Shown here: piece after piece, positions 4,774-15,639 of the stretch | Numbering within the stretch: position 1 is the stretch's first letter | Layout of the letters: each line of letters starts with the position of its first letter | IMG/VR virus record: IMGVR_UViG_3300032046_000066 | Coordinates: 1-42,497 of that record | Source: a virus | Strand: one strand, 5' to 3' | Length of the DNA: 42,497 nt | Notes under the pieces: model-generated | Told to the model about the DNA's origin: nothing | Database searches by the model: none | The model's input: only the letters and a program-made list of their open reading frames with translations | Made by a program: the position numbers and the translations under genes

Positions 4774-5994
4774 TTAACGGTGCAGAAGGTGCTCCGACTC
4801 GAACAGCCGAGCCGTCGCCACCCGCAATCGATTCATGGGCGGTGCATCCTCGAACTTAATGGCGGCCTTGTTCTGAACGTCGATAACGCCTTTCCTTTGC
4901 GGGGCTGGTTGCGCCGCTTCAAGCTTTTTCTTCTCCTCGGCAAGCTTCTCGGCCACCTTGGCGTCGATCGCGGCCTGGACCTTGGGATCGCTGAGTGGGT
5001 CAACCGGCTTCTCCTCCACCTTGGCTGGCGCCACCTCAGCAACGGCTGCGGCCGGAGCTGGGGCATCGGCTGGCTTCTCTACCACCGGCGCCGGAGCGGG
5101 ATCCTCGCTTTTTTTCATGCCGTTCTTCGCCTCGGCCAGACCTTTAATTTCCTCAAGCATTTTTTTCCTTTCAGAAGATTTTTCGTCTCGGATTAATGCG
5201 GCCGCCAGGTCGGCGATGCGTTTCATCGCTCCGTTGGCCGCAGGGGTCTTCGGTTTGGGGTACGGGTAGCCGTTGGCATCGCTGGGGTAGGGATAGGGGT
5301 ACGGCGACGGGTAACCGTACTGATGGCAGAAATCCGACCACGCCTGATTGATCTTCTCATCGTCGCCCTCTGATAGTTGGATGCCGCTGATGTGACTCTT
5401 CCACTGCTCCGCGAGTTCATCAGGCATCGGGAAACCTTTTTGAACCTTCACCTCTTCTGGCAGGATTGTCATGGCATGTCCTCCACTTAATGCTTTCACG
5501 ATGCTTCCAAGTAGTGATTTTTCAGTCTCCTGCCAGTCAACCACTTCTGCCTCGGGGTTTGCAGGACAGGAGACCAGCGAACATTCCGTCAGGTACATCT
5601 TGCGGATTATTTTTGCGACCGTCTTGGTGGAAGGGTCAACTTCGTTGCCGGCCTCTATTACTTTCCCACGAATTGAAAACTTGTTCAGAATGCCCTCTTT
5701 AATTTTCTGCCTGACATCCAACTCTGTCGCCGATATCTCGGCCTTCACCCAAAGACCGTGACTGCTGAACTTTGTGGCAACCACCTTCCCAATCGGTCTG
5801 TTAGGATCATGGTTGAGAAGCATCGTTGAGTTTTTCATCAGGTCGTCACGTGAACCCTTGATCGCGTCTGGTGTTATCTTGTGCCCTTGGAGGTCGTAGT
5901 CGGTCGTCGAGACATAGCCCTCAATGAAAAACTTGGTGTCAGCGAACTCGTGCTTCCTGATTTCAAACTCTGCCACGAAAGGGACTGCGTTCAT
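4774..5994 (-). CDS. Prohead maturation protease with C-terminal scaffold-like tail
   Basis: The start is set at 5994 because ATGA overlaps the stop of the upstream ligase gene and GGAGG lies just before it, giving 406 residues. Residues 1-155 match the HK97 prohead protease (peptidase U35): the catalytic His lies in LLNHDPNRPIGKV (about H62), the Ser in NKFSIRGK (about S107), and a TECSLVSCPANPEA segment follows near 136-149. Residues 230-260 are Tyr-Pro repeats (YPSPYPYPYPS). Residues 290-380 are Ala/Pro/Glu-rich and helical, like a scaffold or delta domain that the protease would later remove. The tail is likely to substitute for a separate scaffolding gene, which is absent. Confidence 0.88.
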   Translation of the reverse strand: MNAVPFVAEFEIRKHEFADTKFFIEGYVSTTDYDLQGHKITPDAIKGSRDDLMKNSTMLLNHDPNRPIGKVVATKFSSHGLWVKAEISATELDVRQKIKEGILNKFSIRGKVIEAGNEVDPSTKTVAKIIRKMYLTECSLVSCPANPEAEVVDWQETEKSLLGSIVKALSGGHAMTILPEEVKVQKGFPMPDELAEQWKSHISGIQLSEGDDEKINQAWSDFCHQYGYPSPYPYPYPSDANGYPYPKPKTPAANGAMKRIADLAAALIRDEKSSERKKMLEEIKGLAEAKNGMKKSEDPAPAPVVEKPADAPAPAAAVAEVAPAKVEEKPVDPLSDPKVQAAIDAKVAEKLAEEKKKLEAAQPAPQRKGVIDVQNKAAIKFEDAPPMNRLRVATARLFESEHLLHR

Positions 5995-8900
5995 CTCGCC
6001 TCCACTCGTTGAGATTTTCCGAACCTCCAATGCGGCGTTTTTCCATCGTCCCGCTGCGCGACCCAGAGACCGCGCATCTTGCCGTCACGGATGTCGTACT
6101 TCTTGAACGTAGGATTGTCGATTAGGATTACGAGCTTGCCACTATCAAGGATTGAGACGGTGGCAGAGGAAGCTTTCGTCGGGTTCATCGGATGCCCTGG
6201 TTCAGGATTGCCTTGATACCTGATACCAGACTTCCACTCGTCTTGCTTAAATGTAGCAGAGACCATTTCGCTTGTCAATGGATTATTTTCAAGAACAAAG
6301 CGGTCTAGCGTTTTCCCGCCTTTGTCCACGCGAAAGTCCCAATGCCACTCGGTGAACCCTTCTCTAACCGGCTTGGCTCCCGGCGTCCTGAATCCATGAA
6401 ATTGCAACGCATAGTCGGCCTCGCCTGCCTTCAAAACGGAGTCGAGATTGGCAACAAGAGCATCACGCACCTTCCTCGCCTCGTCTCCTTTCTTTTCCCA
6501 GTACCGGTATTCTGGCAGTATCTTCTTACGGAGAGCATCAGGCAGAGCCGATACTCCATCCGGTGGCATCCATCCCTTCTCGACCTCGCGCTTGGTTATA
6601 ACGATTGGCGTTTGGTCTTCCGGCTGGATGGCAACCCAGAAAGTGGATGTGGTTTCGCTGCCTTCTTCTACTCCTGGCGGTAGTGCGTTCTCGATCCCCT
6701 CCGATATCGTGTCCCGCGCCAGCCGTCTTATCAGCAACCTGCCGTTCAGCTTTCCGGATAGAAAATACTCATGGGTGTCTAACTTTTGGGCGCCGTATTC
6801 TATGGTCCCGCCATCGATGATAGAGAACACACCGCGGTGCTCCTTGGTTGAACCAGGTGCAGGGAATGGTTGCGTCACGCCTTCAACATTGATCCAGTCC
6901 ACCGGCTCGGGCGCCTTTTCAAAAGCGCGAAGTTGAGCGGCAACGATATTGCCGCTTCGCGTCTCCCTGTCCTTAAACTTTCCTGTCTTCCAGTCAATCT
7001 TCCAGTTGGAATTGACGGCATCCTGGGTCTTGGCTTCCTGCAAGGTCTCCACCGGATTTTTTATGGCGTCGGGGATGAGGTCAGCGATAGTCCACCCGAT
7101 TAGAAACTTTTTATCCTGGTTCTCGGCCCGGAGGTCGACGTGCGCGCTCTTGCCTCGGTAGTGGTGCTGGCAGACGTAATCATACTTTACATCCTCGCTG
7201 GGTGAGACCATATACGGATCAGACTGCTTCTCGATTGCATCATCCCACCCCAGACTCAGGCTTTTTTCCATCTTGTAGATCGTCTCCCCGTCCGGGGAAA
7301 TCTCCTTGAGCGAGAGGACTCCGCCGTCGGCGGCGGCGCGCAGTGCTTCAGCGATGGTGAATGGCTGCTCCTCAACGACTTTCATCACTCGTGGGGCCCA
7401 TGCTCCGATGGTAACGAATCCCTCGGGGTCAACCGTGTAGTTGAGGGTTTCAAACTCGACCTCGATGACATCGCCAGGGTCAGCTTTAATCGCGGTCGAG
7501 AAAGTCTTGCCGACTTCCAAGTATTCCATCCCGGCCACCTCGGCCACGTCCTTCGGATTGACCTTCTCGTCTTCAATCGCCAGCCCGAAATCATAGTTGA
7601 AAGTTCCAGGCACCTTCGTCTCAATCGCATCGAGGACTATTCCCCGCAACAGAGCCGAGACGTGGAACTTGACCCAGCCCTCGCGGGAGTTGCCATCGAG
7701 GTAATAGACAGACCCGGCTTTCTTGGCGACATTGCCCTCGCTGCCGGGGGTCGTGGTGACCTTCAAGGTATCGGCCTTGAGCTCGGCCACGTCCTCGGCC
7801 TTGAAGTGAGGCGCTAGATTGATGCGCTGCTTTAGGTCAGGGTCGCCCGTCGTTGACTGCCTGATTCCCACGCTTCGTAGTTTCCGCAGGCGTTCCTCCA
7901 GCGGCTTCTTGTGCAAGTCCTCGCCGTTGAGATAGAGCAAGTCAAAGACGTTAAAGACGATATTGGAATCAGCAGCTGGATCGCCAGAGTGAGCATAAGC
8001 GGCTACCGCCTCGCGCGGGAAATGCTTGCCGTCCATATCCCACAACTCCACCTCGCAATCCAGCACGGCCCCGGCGCCGACTTTGAGGTCTCGGAAGGAC
8101 TCGACAGCGCCTGGAAAGCGGGATGTGTTATCTTCGCCGTCCTCGCTCATGATTTTAATGCCGGTCCCTGCTGGCGTGTCCTTGATGAAAACAACGTGCC
8201 GTGCTCCATCGTATTTCTTCGATGAGTAGACCGGAAAGTCATCCTCTTTGAAAAGTGAAATGAAGTTGTCGATGCTCTGCCGCTGTTCCGGCTGCGCGCC
8301 CTTGGTGGGCTTCATCGGCAGGAAGAACCGCATGGGTTTCACCACATCATCCTTGAGCGAGGCCTGCGCCTCCTCCTTCACCTTTTCCGATGCCGCGCGC
8401 TGCTTCACGATATCCAACGACTCCTCGTCTTGGCTCATGCGGATCACCTTCATGTCGCCGGGGATCAGCGCGAGATCGTAGGCGGGGATAAAGGAGGTGA
8501 ATGGCCCGGAAGGATCGTTCCCGATGAGGTGCAAGCTCTCCTTCAGCGGGTGTCCTTCGGGTAGTGATCTAATCAGCCGGAAATACAGACGCCGTAAGAG
8601 CTCGTCAATGCTCGGAATGCGCGCCAGGACGTCCAGGTCATTGTCTGATTCACCATTGTTGATGACGCCACCGGTGAAAACCACTGCTCCTTTATGGAGT
8701 ATAATTTGCTGGTTGAAATACTTGAAGATGTCCTCGACCCTGGCCTTGGGCTTTCCCGCGCCGGCCCCAGAAGGATTAACCGGCGCCAGCTCCTGCTTCA
8801 TGAACGGCTTGGACAGTCGGTTCAACTCGTCTTCGTCCTCGTGGTGCTCAAAGCCCCGCCGTCCCATCTCTTGAACCACCAGCACGTGGCGGTTGACGAT

Positions 8901-9416
8901 GTCTTCCACGGATCGCGGCTGACCTTCAATGACCACCTTCTCGCCCCCGGTCTTGCGATTGAAAAAGATGTGCAGTAGCCGATGGACCTGCACGAGGTCT
9001 TGGTCGGTGTACTTCCCCAGTGCATTCCCGAACACTCTTTTCAACAGGTCGTAATATTCCTGTGTCTTGAAGATCACCTCTCCGGTCACCATCCGCGGGC
9101 CCCGTTCTCTGGCCACCCGTCTTGGCTTGTCGAACGCTTTGAAAACGAATTCATGGGCGTTTAGTTTCCTGGCATCCGGCCACCAGCGGCGGCGCTCGTT
9201 GTCGCTGATCTGATGCTGGTCCCGTAGACCATCGAACTCCTTGACCGTTATCTCCCTCGGCGCTTTCAGCTCCACTTCGCCGATGGCTGCATCGCCTTCT
9301 ACCAGCAAAACGGACTTGCCAATCAGATCACTCAGTCTGTCTTCTTGCACAATCAAGGTCTTGGTGCCGTCAAGAACCATTTCCCCGTGGGGTTTAACGA
9401 CCATGAGGGCTTTCAC
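5991..9416 (-). CDS. ASCH-nucleotidyltransferase-ATP DNA ligase-double LigD phosphoesterase-like fusion
   Basis: An 1141-residue fusion protein. The start is GTG, overlapping the portal stop (GTGA), with GGGAGGTGAAGC before it. Domains read by motif: residues 1-105 look like an ASCH/PUA-like domain (ILD-GTKT start, ERRRWWP, HEFVFKAFDKP). Residues 240-325 look like a nucleotidyltransferase fold (TGG...GESDNDLDVL). Residues 365-680 are an ATP-dependent DNA ligase: motif I KYDGAR with K401, motif III near E455, IIIa NVFDLLYLNGEDL, motif IV EGNVAKK near 560, motif V GWVKFH with K583, then an OB-fold. Residues 745-900 and 1000-1141 each carry the LigD 3'-phosphoesterase pattern Q-x-H ... H-x-D-x-R (CQHHYRGKSAHVDLR; LQFHGF ... 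WHWDFR). The ligase is probably active. Activity of the other domains is inferred. No Ku or primase-polymerase gene accompanies it. The place between portal and protease suggests co-production with the head. Confidence 0.85.
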   Translation of the reverse strand: MKALMVVKPHGEMVLDGTKTLIVQEDRLSDLIGKSVLLVEGDAAIGEVELKAPREITVKEFDGLRDQHQISDNERRRWWPDARKLNAHEFVFKAFDKPRRVARERGPRMVTGEVIFKTQEYYDLLKRVFGNALGKYTDQDLVQVHRLLHIFFNRKTGGEKVVIEGQPRSVEDIVNRHVLVVQEMGRRGFEHHEDEDELNRLSKPFMKQELAPVNPSGAGAGKPKARVEDIFKYFNQQIILHKGAVVFTGGVINNGESDNDLDVLARIPSIDELLRRLYFRLIRSLPEGHPLKESLHLIGNDPSGPFTSFIPAYDLALIPGDMKVIRMSQDEESLDIVKQRAASEKVKEEAQASLKDDVVKPMRFFLPMKPTKGAQPEQRQSIDNFISLFKEDDFPVYSSKKYDGARHVVFIKDTPAGTGIKIMSEDGEDNTSRFPGAVESFRDLKVGAGAVLDCEVELWDMDGKHFPREAVAAYAHSGDPAADSNIVFNVFDLLYLNGEDLHKKPLEERLRKLRSVGIRQSTTGDPDLKQRINLAPHFKAEDVAELKADTLKVTTTPGSEGNVAKKAGSVYYLDGNSREGWVKFHVSALLRGIVLDAIETKVPGTFNYDFGLAIEDEKVNPKDVAEVAGMEYLEVGKTFSTAIKADPGDVIEVEFETLNYTVDPEGFVTIGAWAPRVMKVVEEQPFTIAEALRAAADGGVLSLKEISPDGETIYKMEKSLSLGWDDAIEKQSDPYMVSPSEDVKYDYVCQHHYRGKSAHVDLRAENQDKKFLIGWTIADLIPDAIKNPVETLQEAKTQDAVNSNWKIDWKTGKFKDRETRSGNIVAAQLRAFEKAPEPVDWINVEGVTQPFPAPGSTKEHRGVFSIIDGGTIEYGAQKLDTHEYFLSGKLNGRLLIRRLARDTISEGIENALPPGVEEGSETTSTFWVAIQPEDQTPIVITKREVEKGWMPPDGVSALPDALRKKILPEYRYWEKKGDEARKVRDALVANLDSVLKAGEADYALQFHGFRTPGAKPVREGFTEWHWDFRVDKGGKTLDRFVLENNPLTSEMVSATFKQDEWKSGIRYQGNPEPGHPMNPTKASSATVSILDSGKLVILIDNPTFKKYDIRDGKMRGLWVAQRDDGKTPHWRFGKSQRVEAR

Positions 9417-12199
9417 GCTTCACCTCCCGGCGTCTCGATGACTGGGACTATGGTACACCGGCAGTTGGAAACTATTACTTTCTTGTTGCTGGACTTACCG
9501 GCTCCGGCATGATACAATCCGAACAAACCCGACTGGAGGTCGTAAACATGACCAGAAAAATCAAAGGCTCGGACGTTGACAATTTTATCAGATTGCACGA
9601 AACCGGAAGCTCGGTTAAGAAAATCTCGGAGCTGTCTGGGTTCTCCCGCGTAAGCATTGTGCGGCATCTCAATAGGCGAGGGTTCAGACAACGCAATCGC
9701 TCGGAGTCCATGTATCTGCGGATGAGACAGTCCACTGCCGCCCAACGCCAACGCTGGTCTCAAGCCGCCCACAAATCTGTCAAAGGTAGCAAGAGAACGA
9801 TTGAAGAATTGTCCCGCAGAGCACATGGCGTTGAAAAGGTGGCCCGAACCAATTTGGCCGAGGAAACTATGGCCTCGTGGCTGCGCAATGCTGGACTTTC
9901 CATCACCCCACAAAAGGCGGTGGGGCCCTATAATATCGATCTTGCCCTGGATACCCCGTCCATCGCCGTGGAGATTTTCGGGGGACACTTTCACGCGACG
10001 GGTAGACATGCCGCAAGATTTTTCAAGCGTACTAACTATTTGCTCGATTCGGGATGGGCGGTAATCATCGTCCAAGTAGACGCGCTTCGTCATCCCATGA
10101 AAATCGGAGCAGCGAAGCACATCATCGCCCTGGCACAGGAACTTGGCCGCGACCCATCCCCTCGTCGTTGCTATAGGGTGATTTTCGGTGACGGCGAGCC
10201 TGCCACCGTCTGCAAATCTTATTTCAATCGCCCTGCCGATGTAAAAGCTCTTGGCTGCTGCGACTAAATCAGGTATCACTACCTCCTGATTTGGTAGGAT
10301 GCAGTTGGGATGCACCGGCAGAAGGCCACCGGCTTCGTCTACCGGATAAGGCCCGGCTGCCGCCAACGCCAGACATTCTTCCTCGGCTCCGGTGGCCGTC
10401 AGGATGTTCACCATGGTCACGCCCATATCCCTGAACGCCGCTGCCCTTCCCGTTGCTGTTGCTCTGATGGTTTCGGTCCTGGCCACTAACTCGGCCCAAG
10501 CGGTGTTGCTGATGGTCCTCGTGGTGGCCTCTCTAATCGTCTCTCCAGTCGAATCGTCAACCACTGCTCCGACGCTAATCGTTCTCGGCCTGCTCCATGC
10601 TCCACTTACTCGATCGCGCAGCTGTTGGACATCTTCACCGGCCCTGATGCCATCCGATAATGCTTCCTTGATGGATTCTCGCAAGCCATCGGCAAAATCT
10701 TTTATCGGCAATGCCAGCGCGGCCTTTATCCCCTCGAAGTCATCGGGGCCGGGGCCGAACTCGCCGGAGACCTGCTTGACCACAACCATGGACCTTGCTT
10801 CATGCGCCGACTGTTGCATGGTGTGCTTGCTCTCGGCAAGGATGGCGTCTCGCAAAGCGTCGGGATCAACCAGAGCTGCCACTTCCTCCGGCGACCTGGC
10901 CTTGGCCACTGCGGTGACAGTAAGGAGCTCCTGTCTGCGCAATTCCTTCTCCACCGTGTTTTTCGTTCTCTTGAACCCGCTGGAGTTTACAACCCAGTCC
11001 GCGGGTTGACTCGCCCGTGGCTTCATGCCCTTCTTAATCACTCCGGTTAAGCCCAGCTCCGCTCTCACTTCGTCTGGCGTCATCACACCAGACTGCAAAT
11101 AAATTTGGTGCTTCCTGGCCACCTTCTCGTCGGTGTCAGCTTCCTCGGCGTCCTGGCTGGCCTTGTTGAATCGGAAGACGCAATCCACTATTCCCATCGC
11201 GTCTCGGACTATTTTACGGTTGATCCGCCGCTCTATCCTCTCCTGGTGCGGGATCACGACCTCATTCTGGAACGTGAAGTCCTGGCTCTTGCCGGTGCCT
11301 GCCCCGATGTTGCCGGTCTCGATGATGCCGAGCTTTGCCGGTGGGACGCCATAGACCGCCAGGATTTCTTCTCGGTTGAACTTCCTCAATTCCAGGAACT
11401 CAACGTCCTGGGGTGCCTTCTGTAGGTCCTTGAACGTGACCTCTCCTTCCAGCAGTAGGTCCTTGTGGGCATTCTCCGGCCCTTGAAATTCGCTGCGGAG
11501 GTATTCTCGGTTTCTCTTGATCTGCTCTTCCGTCGCACCCTTCATTGAAAACACGCCACGCGGGCGGGCCGCATTTTTGAAAAACGCTCGGTTGTAGGAC
11601 TGAGCATAAATATCGGTCTCGACAGGAGTGAACAGAGAGTTCAACGGAGAGACGCCGAGCTGGTCCCGTCCCTGGCTCGAAAGTTTAAAGTGCGTGACCT
11701 CTCGCTTGGTGAAATCAACACCCGCGTCCGGCTGAGAGTAACCGGTGACGTTGCCATGGTCGTCAATCTTGACTTCCGTGATTGTCGGCTTGAGGTTATA
11801 AATCTGCTTCAGCTTATCTCCTGTAAAAACATTCTCGGTGAACCCGTTGCCGAATATTAAGAGGTCTTCGCTCACGTTCTGTAGGACATCATTCCAGTCG
11901 TCATCCTCGTTTGGCTCGGCAAGCAGTGACATAACCGCCTTCTTGGATGCCTCTCCTCCTTCGAGGTACCATCCCTTGGAAAGCGTGGCCTTGGTGATCA
12001 CGTCAACGCAGGCGCGAACCCAAGAGACGACCAAATAAATCTTGTAGAGCAGCCGAAAGTCAATCATCTTGGCGGCGTAAATCCCGCTCGACAGTTCGGC
12101 TCCTCCCTTGGAATCTTTACGGACGTAGAACGTCCCGCGAGAGTCACGCATCCGTTCTATCTTCTTCTCCGTGATATAGTTCTTCACAATTTCAAACAT
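9413..12199 (-). CDS. Portal protein fused to MuF-type head morphogenesis domain, interrupted by an intein
   Basis: A 928-codon gene with AGGAGGACGAG before its ATG. Residues 1-430 are a phage portal protein (VSWVRACVDVITKATL near the start; GVPPAKLGI and SQDFTFQNEVVIPHQERIERRINRKI in the later helical part, typical of HK97/SPP1-like portals). Residues about 470-632 plus 913-928 are a MuF/SPP1-gp7 domain (ELVARTETIRATATGRAAAF, ending HPNCRCTIVPV). The string HPN-CRC is split by a 280-residue intein at 633-912, so the mature protein would be 648 residues. A portal-MuF fusion is known in some phages. The intein lies at the most conserved MuF motif, a typical homing site. The next gene starts within the stop codon. 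Confidence 0.9.
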   Translation of the reverse strand: MFEIVKNYITEKKIERMRDSRGTFYVRKDSKGGAELSSGIYAAKMIDFRLLYKIYLVVSWVRACVDVITKATLSKGWYLEGGEASKKAVMSLLAEPNEDDDWNDVLQNVSEDLLIFGNGFTENVFTGDKLKQIYNLKPTITEVKIDDHGNVTGYSQPDAGVDFTKREVTHFKLSSQGRDQLGVSPLNSLFTPVETDIYAQSYNRAFFKNAARPRGVFSMKGATEEQIKRNREYLRSEFQGPENAHKDLLLEGEVTFKDLQKAPQDVEFLELRKFNREEILAVYGVPPAKLGIIETGNIGAGTGKSQDFTFQNEVVIPHQERIERRINRKIVRDAMGIVDCVFRFNKASQDAEEADTDEKVARKHQIYLQSGVMTPDEVRAELGLTGVIKKGMKPRASQPADWVVNSSGFKRTKNTVEKELRRQELLTVTAVAKARSPEEVAALVDPDALRDAILAESKHTMQQSAHEARSMVVVKQVSGEFGPGPDDFEGIKAALALPIKDFADGLRESIKEALSDGIRAGEDVQQLRDRVSGAWSRPRTISVGAVVDDSTGETIREATTRTISNTAWAELVARTETIRATATGRAAAFRDMGVTMVNILTATGAEEECLALAAAGPYPVDEAGGLLPVHPNCILPNQEVVIPDLVAAAKSFYIGRAIEIRFADGGRLAVTENHPIATTRGWVAAKFLCQGDDVLRCSDFHGMTKRVYLDDDYRPSRIEQIVSTLEKSCGMSTRRVKVSPENLHGDGRGIQGKIDIIGPHRLLWGDGKSSIAQPRGHSFLGQIGSGHLFNAMCSAGQFFNRSLATFDRFVGGLRPALALGGSGLSHPQIHGLRAIALSEPSPIEMPHNAYAGEPRQLRDFLNRASGFVQSDKIVNVRAFDFSGHVYDLQSGLFGLYHAGAGKSSNKKVIVSNCRCTIVPVIETPGGEA
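9490..9518 (+). promoter_or_regulatory. Promoter-like sequence for the antisense endonuclease
   Basis: TGGACT (9490-9495), a 17-base spacer and TACAAT (9513-9518) form a fair sigma70-type pair on the plus strand. It lies about 30 bases upstream of the endonuclease start codon and is followed by GGAGGT (9535-9540), seven bases before the ATG. It lies inside the region coding intein block F on the other strand. The -35 match is only four of six, so this is tentative. Confidence 0.45.
9548..10267 (+). CDS. Vsr/DUF559-like homing endonuclease, antisense inside the intein
   Basis: 239 residues from the ATG at 9548, chosen over the upstream ATG at 9509 because GGAGGT sits seven bases before it. 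Residues 5-45 form a helix-turn-helix of the Hin/resolvase type (SVKKISELSGFSRVSIVRHL). Residues 100-180 form a PD-(D/E)xK/Vsr-like nuclease core: LAEETMASWL helix, YNIDLALD with D131, IAVEIFGGHFHA with E142 and H147/H149, K160, then GWAVIIVQVD. This matches the EDxHD homing nucleases and DUF559-type nucleases. It is the only plus-strand gene supported by a ribosome site. Every codon lies exactly opposite a codon of the intein (9548-9550 pairs with one intein codon), so both proteins are read from the same 720 bp. It presumably cuts intein-free portal genes. Confidence 0.82.
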   Translation: MTRKIKGSDVDNFIRLHETGSSVKKISELSGFSRVSIVRHLNRRGFRQRNRSESMYLRMRQSTAAQRQRWSQAAHKSVKGSKRTIEELSRRAHGVEKVARTNLAEETMASWLRNAGLSITPQKAVGPYNIDLALDTPSIAVEIFGGHFHATGRHAARFFKRTNYLLDSGWAVIIVQVDALRHPMKIGAAKHIIALAQELGRDPSPRRCYRVIFGDGEPATVCKSYFNRPADVKALGCCD

Positions 12200-12256: not shown

Positions 12257-14350
12257 TTATGGGGAATAGTACTGCAAATATGATCCGGCCAAAACGGTGG
12301 TGTTCGCCGCCGTTGAAGTGTTTTGCGCCCACCTAAAAGAGAACGTCCCGCTGTTCGCTCCCGTTTGGCATGTCACGTCAAACATGGCAAACCCGCCCGT
12401 CGTTCCCGTCCCAAGGAAAGCCTGTTCCGCTGGGTTAGTTACATCGGGCGCAAGGGCAAACGGTACTGATCCCGGAACGCAGCCGCTACGATAACTTCGG
12501 AAGGTTGCAAACCCCGCAACCCCGGTAAATCCCATATCGCATTTAAAATCAGCGGTGGCAGTAGTGTCGAAAAAAATCATCATTTTAATTCGATACCAGG
12601 TATTAGCGGCCATTGAAAACTGCAAGGCCGCGTCTACGTTCACCGTAGCATCGGACTGTATCGTTTCAGATGATGATTTAGGAACGGCTATCCAAGGCAA
12701 TGTTTGCGGCGTAGCAGTCGGCTCCGGCGTCAATACCGCCGTCAATGCAGCAGCCACTGCCGTCTGCACGTAAGGAGCCGAACTCGTGGGCACGGGTATC
12801 GCTGTCGCTGTTGCTACTGGTGTTAATACTGCCGTCAGCGCGGCCGCTACTTGCGTTTGCACGTAAGGCACGGACGACGTAGGCACTGGGATTGCCGTTG
12901 CCGTCGGTGCAGGCGTTGGGATAAACGTCATCACCAGCGTCTGATTCGCCAAGCCCTTCGTCGTCTCGCCCATATCGGGTATAGTGGTCGGCGTCGGCAC
13001 GGGCGTGCATGGCGCGAGAGTAGGGACAGGAGTTGGCGGCGGCGTCGGCCACGTCGTCGGGACTGGCGTCGGTATCAAGGTTGCGATCATCGTGAAATTA
13101 GCCGCACCCTTAACCGTCGCTCCCATGTCGGGGATTGTCGCTGATACCCCTGTTATTCCGGCGCCGTCACCCTCAAATATTCCCGTTATTGTCGCAGGCA
13201 GGGAATATGTCGGCCACGGCGTCGCGGTATCAACGGGAGTAGGCGGCGGTGTCGGCCAGTCAGGAGTGAGCGTCACGGTGAAGGTTGGCGTGACAGTGAA
13301 CGTCTCGGTGGCCGTTGGTGTCTCCGTTGGTGTTGAAGTAAACGTTGGCGTCATGGTCATGGAGTAGATGGTTGAGCTCTCGTAGCATCCCATGTCCCAA
13401 TAGTTGAACTGAGGGTAAGCCGTCCCGTCCAAGTCATAAGTCACCCCGTTCGACGTCCCTGACGTGCCGACATTGAATAACGCAGAGCCGGTCTTCAGTC
13501 TTGGGTTACTACACGGAGAGATCATCGCATCTGCGGCGGTGATCTTGATACAACCTGGGCCGAGACTTGCAGGCAAGGTATTGGCAAACGCCGAGTATGA
13601 CACCCGCGCGGGAGTCCCCGGATAGGTGAACTTCGCATCGGTGCCATTGCAAGCAAAAACGCAATCGATGACTGTAACTCGTTCGTCTGTGTCCACGCCA
13701 TAAAGAGTGCAGCCCAGGACGTCCGCCGAAACCATGATTCCCACCGGTCCCGTTTGTGATCCGGTGACCTTGACTCCCGTTCCACCACCCGTTGAATCGG
13801 CGGTAACCAGGCATGCCAGCAGCTTGAAGTTGGGAAGAGGCGACGCCGTGGTCGCATAATAGAATCCGACCAAAGCATTGCTGGACCCGCCGACGGAACA
13901 CCTGTCAAAAACATCCGATCCGGTTGCCGCGCTCGAGCGGGATAGATGAATGATCTCATCTGACGTTGAATCGAACGTGCAGCGAGTGGCCAAGATATTC
14001 CCGCAGCCGGAGGATGCCAGGACCGCATAACCTTGGCTGGAGACTATCATCCCTGTCACCGTCAAGGTCTCGGATGTTGAAAGGCCATTTAAGACCAGAC
14101 CATATCCGGACGAGGATCCCGCGCGCGGCGAACACCCATTCCCTGCGGCAAGAGTAATCGAGATCGTCGGCGCGAACGCTTCGTTGTAGGTCCCTGAGTC
14201 GTCTACCCTGATGGTGTCGCCGCCGGACGCCGCCGCCAGCGCAGATGAAAGAGTAGAGTATGCCCCGCCGGTCTTCTTGACAATCAGCGTCGCGGCCGAC
14301 GCTGGCGCCACCAGTATAGTCACCATTGCCGCTATAATTAATATTTTCAT
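12257..14350 (-). CDS. Secreted beta-helix fiber with long Thr-Pro stalk and jelly-roll-like tip
   Basis: The start at 14350 overlaps the TerL stop (ATGA) and gives MKILIIAAMVTILVAPASA, a clear signal peptide; the product has 697 residues. Residues 20-330 are a beta-helix opening KKTGGAYSTLSSAL...DTIRVDDSGTYNEAF, closely matching the protein at 2092-3705. Residues about 330-560 are a Pro/Thr/Val stalk in which motifs such as ATAIPVPTSS(V/A)PYVQT and IPDMG.T.KG..N recur twice. The last 140 residues end in TVLAGSYLQYYSP, an ending frequent in phage receptor-binding tips with a beta-sandwich. Its place between TerL and portal is unusual for a fiber gene and suggests insertion of a duplicated copy. 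It uses weak ribosome sequences and is probably translationally coupled. Confidence 0.85.
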   Translation of the reverse strand: MKILIIAAMVTILVAPASAATLIVKKTGGAYSTLSSALAAASGGDTIRVDDSGTYNEAFAPTISITLAAGNGCSPRAGSSSGYGLVLNGLSTSETLTVTGMIVSSQGYAVLASSGCGNILATRCTFDSTSDEIIHLSRSSAATGSDVFDRCSVGGSSNALVGFYYATTASPLPNFKLLACLVTADSTGGGTGVKVTGSQTGPVGIMVSADVLGCTLYGVDTDERVTVIDCVFACNGTDAKFTYPGTPARVSYSAFANTLPASLGPGCIKITAADAMISPCSNPRLKTGSALFNVGTSGTSNGVTYDLDGTAYPQFNYWDMGCYESSTIYSMTMTPTFTSTPTETPTATETFTVTPTFTVTLTPDWPTPPPTPVDTATPWPTYSLPATITGIFEGDGAGITGVSATIPDMGATVKGAANFTMIATLIPTPVPTTWPTPPPTPVPTLAPCTPVPTPTTIPDMGETTKGLANQTLVMTFIPTPAPTATAIPVPTSSVPYVQTQVAAALTAVLTPVATATAIPVPTSSAPYVQTAVAAALTAVLTPEPTATPQTLPWIAVPKSSSETIQSDATVNVDAALQFSMAANTWYRIKMMIFFDTTATADFKCDMGFTGVAGFATFRSYRSGCVPGSVPFALAPDVTNPAEQAFLGTGTTGGFAMFDVTCQTGANSGTFSFRWAQNTSTAANTTVLAGSYLQYYSP

Positions 14351-15639
14351 CCGATCACCGTTATTCCTGGCTCGATGTATGAATCCTCGGCGTTGCCGAT
14401 GGCCAGCGACATCACGCAGTCGTCGTGCGCGCCCTCCGGCGCCGAATATTGCAGGTTCCCCGATCGGGAAGTCCGATATCCGAACAACCGCAGTTCGTTC
14501 AGGAAGTCCGGCCACGGCGGGATCACCAGCTGGCCCCGCTCCAGGTCCAGGGCGAGCTTCTCTATGATCTCCGCCTTCTTCGCGCTCTGGATATTCACCG
14601 GCTCAATAACCACCATCGGGAGATCTCGCACCAGCATGTCGATCAACGGATCACCGATGCCGTTCTGTTCTGGCTTCACCTTCACCGGCCGCCACCGCTC
14701 GATGAACTCCCGCAACCGAGTCAACTGGAACCCATAGTCCACTCGGCCGAGCCTCTCTCTGGCCACCGCCGCCTTCGGCTTGATCGACACATCGATCGCG
14801 GTGAACACTGTGTAATCTCGGCGCTTGCCCCAGTCGACCGAGACCACGTACCGATGCCCTGCGACGGGCCCCGCCAGTTCCGTCCCCACCGCCGCGGCGT
14901 CCGGGTCCCTGAACACGTCTCCGTCCTCGTCCACGAACTCCGCGAGTATTTCCTGCCGGTATACTCGCTCGGTCATGCCCTGACACGCCTCCTGAATCTG
15001 GTCCGGCTCCAGTGTCGTGTTCGCATACGTCGGGAATCTCCACGAGTCCCAGGCCGTGAGGCTCGGGTCCTGCCCGTTGCCGTAAAGACGCTTGACGAAA
15101 TTATTACGCGCAGTGAAAATTCCGATGGCGCGACCGCCCTTGTCGATCAGCGCCGGTTGAATACACCTCGCCCACGCCGTCTCATTCCAGTCCTGCATCT
15201 CGTCGCATACCGCCCCCGCTAAACCCTCGGCCGCAAGCGACTCCTCCACCTCCGCAGACATGAAGAACATCTCGCTCCCGTTCTTCAGCCGCGTGTATAA
15301 CTCTGCCTTCGACTCATCGGCCACCAACTCCTGCGGCCTGATCTTCAACCACTGCCGCCATGCCTTCCTCGTCACCTTGTAAATCGAACCGACCCACCAA
15401 TAGACCCCGTCCGACTCCAACCCCATCCGCAGCAATTCCGGCACGGCGTGCAACGTCTTCGATAACCGACGACCACCGCACACCATCCTGAACCGCGCGC
15501 CTGAATCATAAAAACCCGGGCGCGAATATTCAAACTCGCCCGATGCCATGTCGTACCCCGACGCATAAACCCACTCCAGAGGAGTGTATGGCAGCTCCAC
15601 CTGCCTCTCCGGAAGAACTCTCTCCCCTGTCACTATCAT
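14347..15639 (-). CDS. terL: Terminase large subunit
   Basis: 430 residues. The ATPase domain has a degenerate Walker A (VCGGRRLSKT, 54-62) and Walker B AGAVCDEMQDW (D146, E147). The RNase H-like nuclease domain shows VVSVDWGKRRDYTVF (D269), KPEQNGIGDPLID (E324) and PEGAHDDCVMSLAI (D406/D407), the three acidic positions of terminase nucleases. The length is at the short end of the family. It powers DNA packaging through the portal and cuts the concatemer. The start overlaps the stop of the 15636-15926 gene (ATGA). A separate TerS candidate lies 680 bases upstream. Confidence 0.92.
   Translation of the reverse strand: MIVTGERVLPERQVELPYTPLEWVYASGYDMASGEFEYSRPGFYDSGARFRMVCGGRRLSKTLHAVPELLRMGLESDGVYWWVGSIYKVTRKAWRQWLKIRPQELVADESKAELYTRLKNGSEMFFMSAEVEESLAAEGLAGAVCDEMQDWNETAWARCIQPALIDKGGRAIGIFTARNNFVKRLYGNGQDPSLTAWDSWRFPTYANTTLEPDQIQEACQGMTERVYRQEILAEFVDEDGDVFRDPDAAAVGTELAGPVAGHRYVVSVDWGKRRDYTVFTAIDVSIKPKAAVARERLGRVDYGFQLTRLREFIERWRPVKVKPEQNGIGDPLIDMLVRDLPMVVIEPVNIQSAKKAEIIEKLALDLERGQLVIPPWPDFLNELRLFGYRTSRSGNLQYSAPEGAHDDCVMSLAIGNAEDSYIEPGITVIG

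Follow-up and report, generated by a model that had tools for sequence, protein, structure and literature searches.

How does an intein carry an endonuclease when the in-frame domain in which inteins are assumed to hold it is missing? The question is raised by IMG/VR virus record IMGVR_UViG_3300032046_000066, a stretch of 42,497 bases referred to here as the window, in which a minus-strand gene that joins a portal protein to a head protein of the MuF type is split by an insert whose plus strand holds a long open reading frame (ORF) of its own. A preliminary description of this DNA took the insert for an intein with Cys1, a T-E-N-H block B, a block F and an Asn|Cys end, and the plus-strand ORF for a gene encoding a helix-turn-helix (HTH) plus Vsr/DUF559-like nuclease, which has its own Shine-Dalgarno (SD) and promoter-like signals, lies with its codons exactly opposite those of the intein, and keeps the intein frame open. 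Each of these points is borne out by the analysis, and the arrangement stands as described, but its treatment as a single odd case does not, since the locus belongs to a large family. The best explanation, to which a probability of about 0.86 is assigned, is that the intein is mobile and that its homing endonuclease, instead of forming an in-frame domain, is encoded by a gene of its own on the opposite strand, which shares all of its codons with the intein. Comparison of related sequences points both to homing and to a separate transcript.

Judged by its sequence and predicted fold, the plus-strand ORF is a complete gene for an HTH plus PD-(D/E)XK nuclease resembling Vsr and I-Bth0305I. An ATG at 9509 would lengthen the ORF, but the conserved start is the one at 9548. 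The AlphaFold2 model of the protein has a predicted local distance difference test (pLDDT) value of 83. A profile search returns 3hrl (2.9e-8) and, as second-best match, the homing endonuclease I-Bth0305I (3r3p, 3.4e-6), and the best solved fold in Foldseek is the catalytic domain of I-Bth0305I (3r3p, 4.6e-3 and 9.7e-3), followed by 3hrl and Vsr, the matches of the nuclease having E-values of 4.6e-3 to 6e-2 and probabilities of ∼1. The six nuclease-domain residues listed in Table 1 are invariant in the seven closest relatives, and five of them (E105, D131, E142, H149 and H154) are candidates for the E-D-x-H-D catalytic set. Their 26-residue E-D and 5-residue H-H spacings are the same as those in Vsr between E25 and D51, and between H64 and H69, which provides a lead. 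In relatives the Pfam families HTH_7, HTH_58 and HTH_23 are matched, and the HTH is often present there in two copies. Where the HTH is duplicated, as observed in several loci (L001, L011, L019, L036, L047 and L050), the intein middle is longer accordingly, indicating that nuclease modules drive intein length.

A single-sequence search of viral contigs with the window nuclease found nothing, and alignments were required to recover relatives; profiles A1 and A6 are too divergent for a pattern search. Searching with the intein yields 23 loci in viral contigs, all with an antisense nuclease in the same register. Searching with the nuclease only yields 101 loci (21 in bacterial genomes and 80, of 263, in viral contigs), every one of them antisense, in register 0, and enclosed by an open ORF that has the N-terminal motif of the intein; the C-terminal motif is present in 99. 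With the first 63 residues of the intein as query, an antisense nuclease is found at 84 of 85 loci, the three sets of loci overlapping one another. The exception (L251) is a mini-intein of 190 residues at the same site, which has neither the middle region nor the nuclease, and the antisense of which is full of stops. Thus the family presents neither relatives that generally lack the antisense frame nor a host frame full of stops, either of which the preliminary description had named as telling against a gene. The bacterial-genome loci, which are probably prophages, come from Firmicutes, Actinobacteria, Chloroflexi, cyanobacteria and others. Among isolates there are 125 records with the nuclease and 98 with the intein, from Jersey-type Salmonella phages, Kagunavirus coliphages, phages of Pseudomonas, Gordonia, Vibrio, Cronobacter, Klebsiella and Aggregatibacter, and others, and the nuclease is nested in a head-protein gene in all but one of the isolate loci examined. 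Snoke is annotated with an intein (PMC6776784) and its antisense gene is unannotated; the same combination is found in fEg-Eco06 and a Vibrio phage, automatic 'hypothetical' calls, for example in PK1, being set aside. Host proteins of relatives match Phage_Mu_F, Phage_min_cap2 or VG15 in Pfam. Three loci (L176, L207 and L211) lie at other insertion sites, and two of these hosts are left unnamed by Pfam; the junctions read HDHYS|C..SN|CGAA in L207 and PNQIGA|C..SN|CSIN in L211/L216, and these host proteins are probably not MuF.

Evidence for mobility comes from the insertion site and from the relative divergence of the intein and its flanks. When the flanks are joined without the intein, a match in one place is obtained in ∼400 phage records, and in the 60 best empty-site records 299–300 of 300 bases are matched in one piece. 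The MuF gene is 1044 bp long in PIZ SAE-01E2 and 1860 bp long in LP31, the difference being exactly the 816-bp intein, and precise in-frame insertion with intein-free homologues is demonstrated for Guernseyvirinae relatives. Between PhiSTP2 and W5_chr3 the intein is 99.6% identical (0.4% divergent) and the exteins are 15.7% divergent; the corresponding divergences between Snoke and PK1 are 2.6% and 14.8%. Together, the exact empty sites and the near-identical inteins in diverged exteins indicate that the element moves. These findings also bear on the idea that the antisense protein is real but no homing enzyme, serving the phage instead as a regulator or as a nuclease against competitors, with the intein as carrier only. 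Its HTH domains are indeed like those of regulators and resolvases, and cutting of intein-free rivals would exclude competitors too; however, patchy presence at an exact site and near-identical inteins in diverged exteins fit homing, as do the decay states and the free-standing copy beside its target gene described below, so that a role of this kind is considered unlikely. A further observation concerns fEg-Eco06 (L052, 1396–3387, minus strand), in which the intein is found at another MuF position, SRTST|CRARDG, ∼20 residues upstream of HPN|CRS, and the usual HPN|CRS site in the same MuF gene is empty.

By its motifs the insert is a real intein, the splicing itself being predicted. The window has a Cys1 nucleophile directly after HPN, TxxH in block B, and a terminal Asn followed by Cys in S-N|CRC. 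The family profile matches solved inteins at both ends (KlbA, 2jmz, E = 1.4e-12), and Intein_splicing is found by Pfam in 23 of 24 relatives. The AlphaFold2 model is confident mainly at residues 1–128 and 222–280, and its structural matches are inteins. No nuclease family match is found for the in-frame residues 129–218, and thus no embedded endonuclease of the canonical kind between blocks B and F. Cys1 is present in the window and in nearly all relatives, with Ser in L019 and Ala in REQ3. The Ser that precedes Asn280 in the window, where His might stand, could be taken to mean that the nuclease is translated within an intein that no longer splices, a tolerated insertion such as has been proposed for the ShiLan domain. 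However, Ser is common at this position in the family (HN|C in 44, SN|C in 37 and KN|C in 18), very divergent loci all keep Cys1, TxxH, block F and Asn|Cys+1, and constraint is strongest at the Hint ends, which together make loss of splicing very improbable.

Residue numbers of the intein and the nuclease sum to 253, so that the codons of both proteins lie exactly opposite one another, with codon position 1 facing position 3 and position 2 facing position 2. The register is not a matter of chance, because relatives have the same register and Pfam finds the nuclease and the HTHs, as well as Intein_splicing in relatives. Across 39 nuclease genes, not all of them independent, 0 stops are observed in the host frame, whereas 221.6 are expected when the codon usage of each locus is taken into account. 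Among 12 Guernseyvirinae inteins, intein third positions vary most in residues 1–68 and 239–272, and in the middle the most variable are intein first positions, which are the wobble positions of the nuclease. Substitutions per opportunity amount to 0.309 where synonymous in both proteins, 0.187 where nonsynonymous in the intein only, 0.076 where nonsynonymous in the nuclease only, and 0.025 where nonsynonymous in both; as the comparison of double- with single-nonsynonymous rates is confounded by codon position 2, weight is placed on the regional pattern and on a recoding control. Random recoding of the nuclease reproduces the observed intein identity opposite nuclease residues 21–100 (z 0.4–1.7), reproduces it only partly opposite residues 101–190 (z 7–10), and fails to do so opposite the ends (z 13.7 and 39.1). 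Opposite nuclease residues 35–100, the intein is constrained little or not at all as a protein, except through the nuclease. The regional variation and the recoding results indicate that constraint is split between splicing domain and nuclease, and that part of the intein middle is largely a passenger. Distances of the nuclease and of the intein ends are correlated (Mantel r 0.37, permuted maximum 0.135), indicating that the two are inherited together.

It is scarcely credible that the antisense ORF is no gene but a by-product of intein coding bias or of chance openness, even though this register favors long antisense ORFs in GC-rich DNA and several spurious long ORFs occur elsewhere in the window, given the nuclease and HTH family matches, the predicted fold with its endonuclease core, the stronger constraint on the nuclease than on the intein in the middle, the SD and promoter, the free-standing homologue, and the stops that fill the antisense of the nuclease-free mini-intein; chance in particular is refuted by the absence of host-frame stops, by the register common to all 101 loci, and by the phage P1068 control presented below. 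A plain insertion without an intein is ruled out by the ends that match solved inteins, and a group I intron by the lack of any Rfam match in 9000–10700 and a host frame that is open throughout.

Read in antisense, the intein C-terminus contains a sigma-70 promoter for the nuclease along with its SD and start codon. At the best loci TTGACA is opposite I-V-K-N, TATAA is opposite L-Y, and GGAGGT...ATG is opposite D-L-Q plus H, and several distinct loci have a perfect TTGACA-17/18-TATAAT. The counts among 89 distinct relatives in Table 1 refer to loci with His at block F, 25 others being left out. The promoter signal is stronger than in synonymous recodings (combined P = 7e-11, 28 loci). For the SD the same comparison is a weak one (combined P = 0.012) because the peptide itself nearly fixes the SD, the conservation of which therefore does not constitute independent evidence.

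Under the interpretation of a mobile intein with an opposite-strand homing endonuclease, host RNA polymerase would start at the internal sigma-70 promoter and produce the nuclease mRNA, probably at an early stage. The nuclease would cut intein-free copies of the conserved MuF site in co-infecting phages, and repair would copy the element into the cut site. The late sense transcript would be translated through the intein, which would then splice itself out of the head protein. Several points weigh against this interpretation. Transcription, splicing and cleavage are all deduced by comparing sequences. The window promoter, TGGACT-17-TACAAT, is modest at 9/12 plus a TG ahead of the −10 element, and some loci have weak promoters or SDs. 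H149 and H154 are not kept outside the closest group, and some members may therefore be inactive or use other residues. The window intein alone has a weak Pfam score (0.019) and no Pfam match at E 0.01. Finally, the lower divergence of the intein in the pairs compared above is due partly to double coding, although the same region diverges by up to 21% in other pairs.

With every codon in double use, any frameshift in the nuclease would disrupt an essential head protein as well, and decay of the nuclease should consequently slow. At one locus (L188, 2328–3269, minus strand) the nuclease has two internal stops and the intein frame is open, an instance of nuclease decay by substitution without a frameshift; at another (L200) neither frame is intact. 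Acinetobacter phage P1068 has an uninterrupted MuF gene with an intact PMCKCR target site. The same phage has a free-standing nuclease relative of 297 residues, annotated as hypothetical (L255, 1806–2699, plus strand), which is encoded on the other strand and meets the MuF gene tail to tail, the two ends overlapping by a few bases. The frames opposite this nuclease are full of stops, which indicates that openness in the nested loci is due to shared coding. Sequence comparison with P1068 suggests that the nested form was preceded by a free-standing endonuclease convergent with a neighboring target gene. The more general proposition, of a broad double-coded class that arose from a convergent free-standing endonuclease comparable to that of P1068 and in which a mutational lock lets the nuclease escape the usual decay phase, is regarded as an even bet.

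The element resembles canonical large inteins, for example PI-SceI, in its predicted self-splicing Hint domain, its exact insertion at a conserved site, its presence or absence among relatives, and its horizontal movement. Canonical inteins, however, have a LAGLIDADG or HNH domain in frame, whereas here the opposite strand holds a separate Vsr-like gene that has a promoter and SD to itself, and the in-frame middle of the window intein is predicted to be unfolded. The likeness to the EDxHD/Vsr-like homing endonucleases consists of the closest solved fold (I-Bth0305I), a significant profile match, and modular DNA-binding parts. This group is reportedly represented by I-Bth0305I in work by Taylor in 2011 and by the 'fractured genes' split-intein loci in work by Dassa in 2009. 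To our knowledge, its members are intron-encoded or free-standing between split-intein halves, and none is antisense and double-coding inside a continuous intein. The hidden endonuclease of the ShiLan type likewise occupies another frame of a stop-free in-frame insert and is apparently homing, but it is an HNH enzyme on the same strand, without an intein splicing domain or a detectable SD, whereas the window has an antisense nuclease with SD and promoter and a real intein with its splicing motifs. For a methylase insert, an HNH encoded out of frame on the same strand is known (PMC11855218). Antisense homing endonuclease genes occur in nuclear group I introns of myxomycetes (PMC9548176), where the gene is similarly opposite to a self-splicing host element and has its own transcript; the overlap there is with non-coding intron RNA, whereas here every codon of the nuclease serves at the same time in a protein that is predicted to be spliced. 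A literature search found no antisense endonuclease in an intein; a preprint on non-canonical actinophage inteins (bioRxiv 2025.01.02.630785) was outside its coverage, and its treatment of intein architecture is the main risk to novelty.

The antisense nuclease within an intein is kept across many phage groups, including isolates, where it is mostly unannotated. Few cases show as clearly that selection acts on a full-length protein on each strand of a single stretch of DNA, and hundreds of natural variants are available. It opens to testing the origin of overlapping genes and the way in which they share constraint, the means by which selfish elements escape decay, and the effect of antisense transcription on an essential late gene. 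A set of inteins and site-specific nucleases, all for one conserved phage site, may be obtainable from the family as well.

Table 1. Features of the intein-nuclease locus and its host gene, in window coordinates.
Feature	Position	Strand	Remarks
Portal protein fused to MuF-type head protein, 928 residues, split by intein	9413..12199	-	Pfam Phage_portal 7e-56; HPN|CRC junction
Intein, 280 residues (Cys1–Asn280), placed in the MuF part after HPN and before CRC	9464..10303	-	Blocks A, B, F and G kept
Splicing (Hint) domain, N-terminal part, residues 1–128	9920..10303	-	AlphaFold2 pLDDT mostly 65–94
Block B, T-E-N-H	10178..10189	-	T39 and H42 invariant in 24 inteins
Intein middle, residues 129–218, predicted disordered	9650..9919	-	AlphaFold2 pLDDT <50
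Splicing domain, C-terminal part, blocks F and G	9464..9640	-	Motif conservation, AlphaFold2
Block F, G-H-V-Y-D-L	9536..9553	-	Opposite strand holds most of the nuclease SD, the spacer and the start codon
Antisense nuclease gene, 239 residues plus stop	9548..10267	+	Pfam MTES_1575 6e-7, DUF559 0.003
HTH DNA-binding domain	9563..9682	+	Helices 7–18, 23–30 and 34–43 (AlphaFold2); one copy in window
PD-(D/E)XK / Vsr-like nuclease domain, residues 103–201	9854..10150	+	E105, D131, E142, H149, H154, R161
SD, GGAGGT	9535..9540	+	7 nt ahead of ATG; GGAGGT in 36/89 distinct relatives
−10 element, TACAAT, with TG at 9510–9511	9513..9518	+	Perfect TATAAT in 43/89 distinct relatives
−35-like element, TGGACT	9490..9495	+	Perfect TTGACA in 14/89 distinct relatives

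Two neighboring ORFs on the minus strand are of separate interest. An ORF of 1141 residues (5991–9416) shares 4 bases with the end of the portal-MuF gene and contains an ATP-dependent DNA ligase domain (3e-22) along with long regions without assignment, and is an unusual neighbor for head genes. Upstream of the portal gene, an ORF of 752 residues (12257–14515) contains long Thr/Pro-rich low-complexity repeats.

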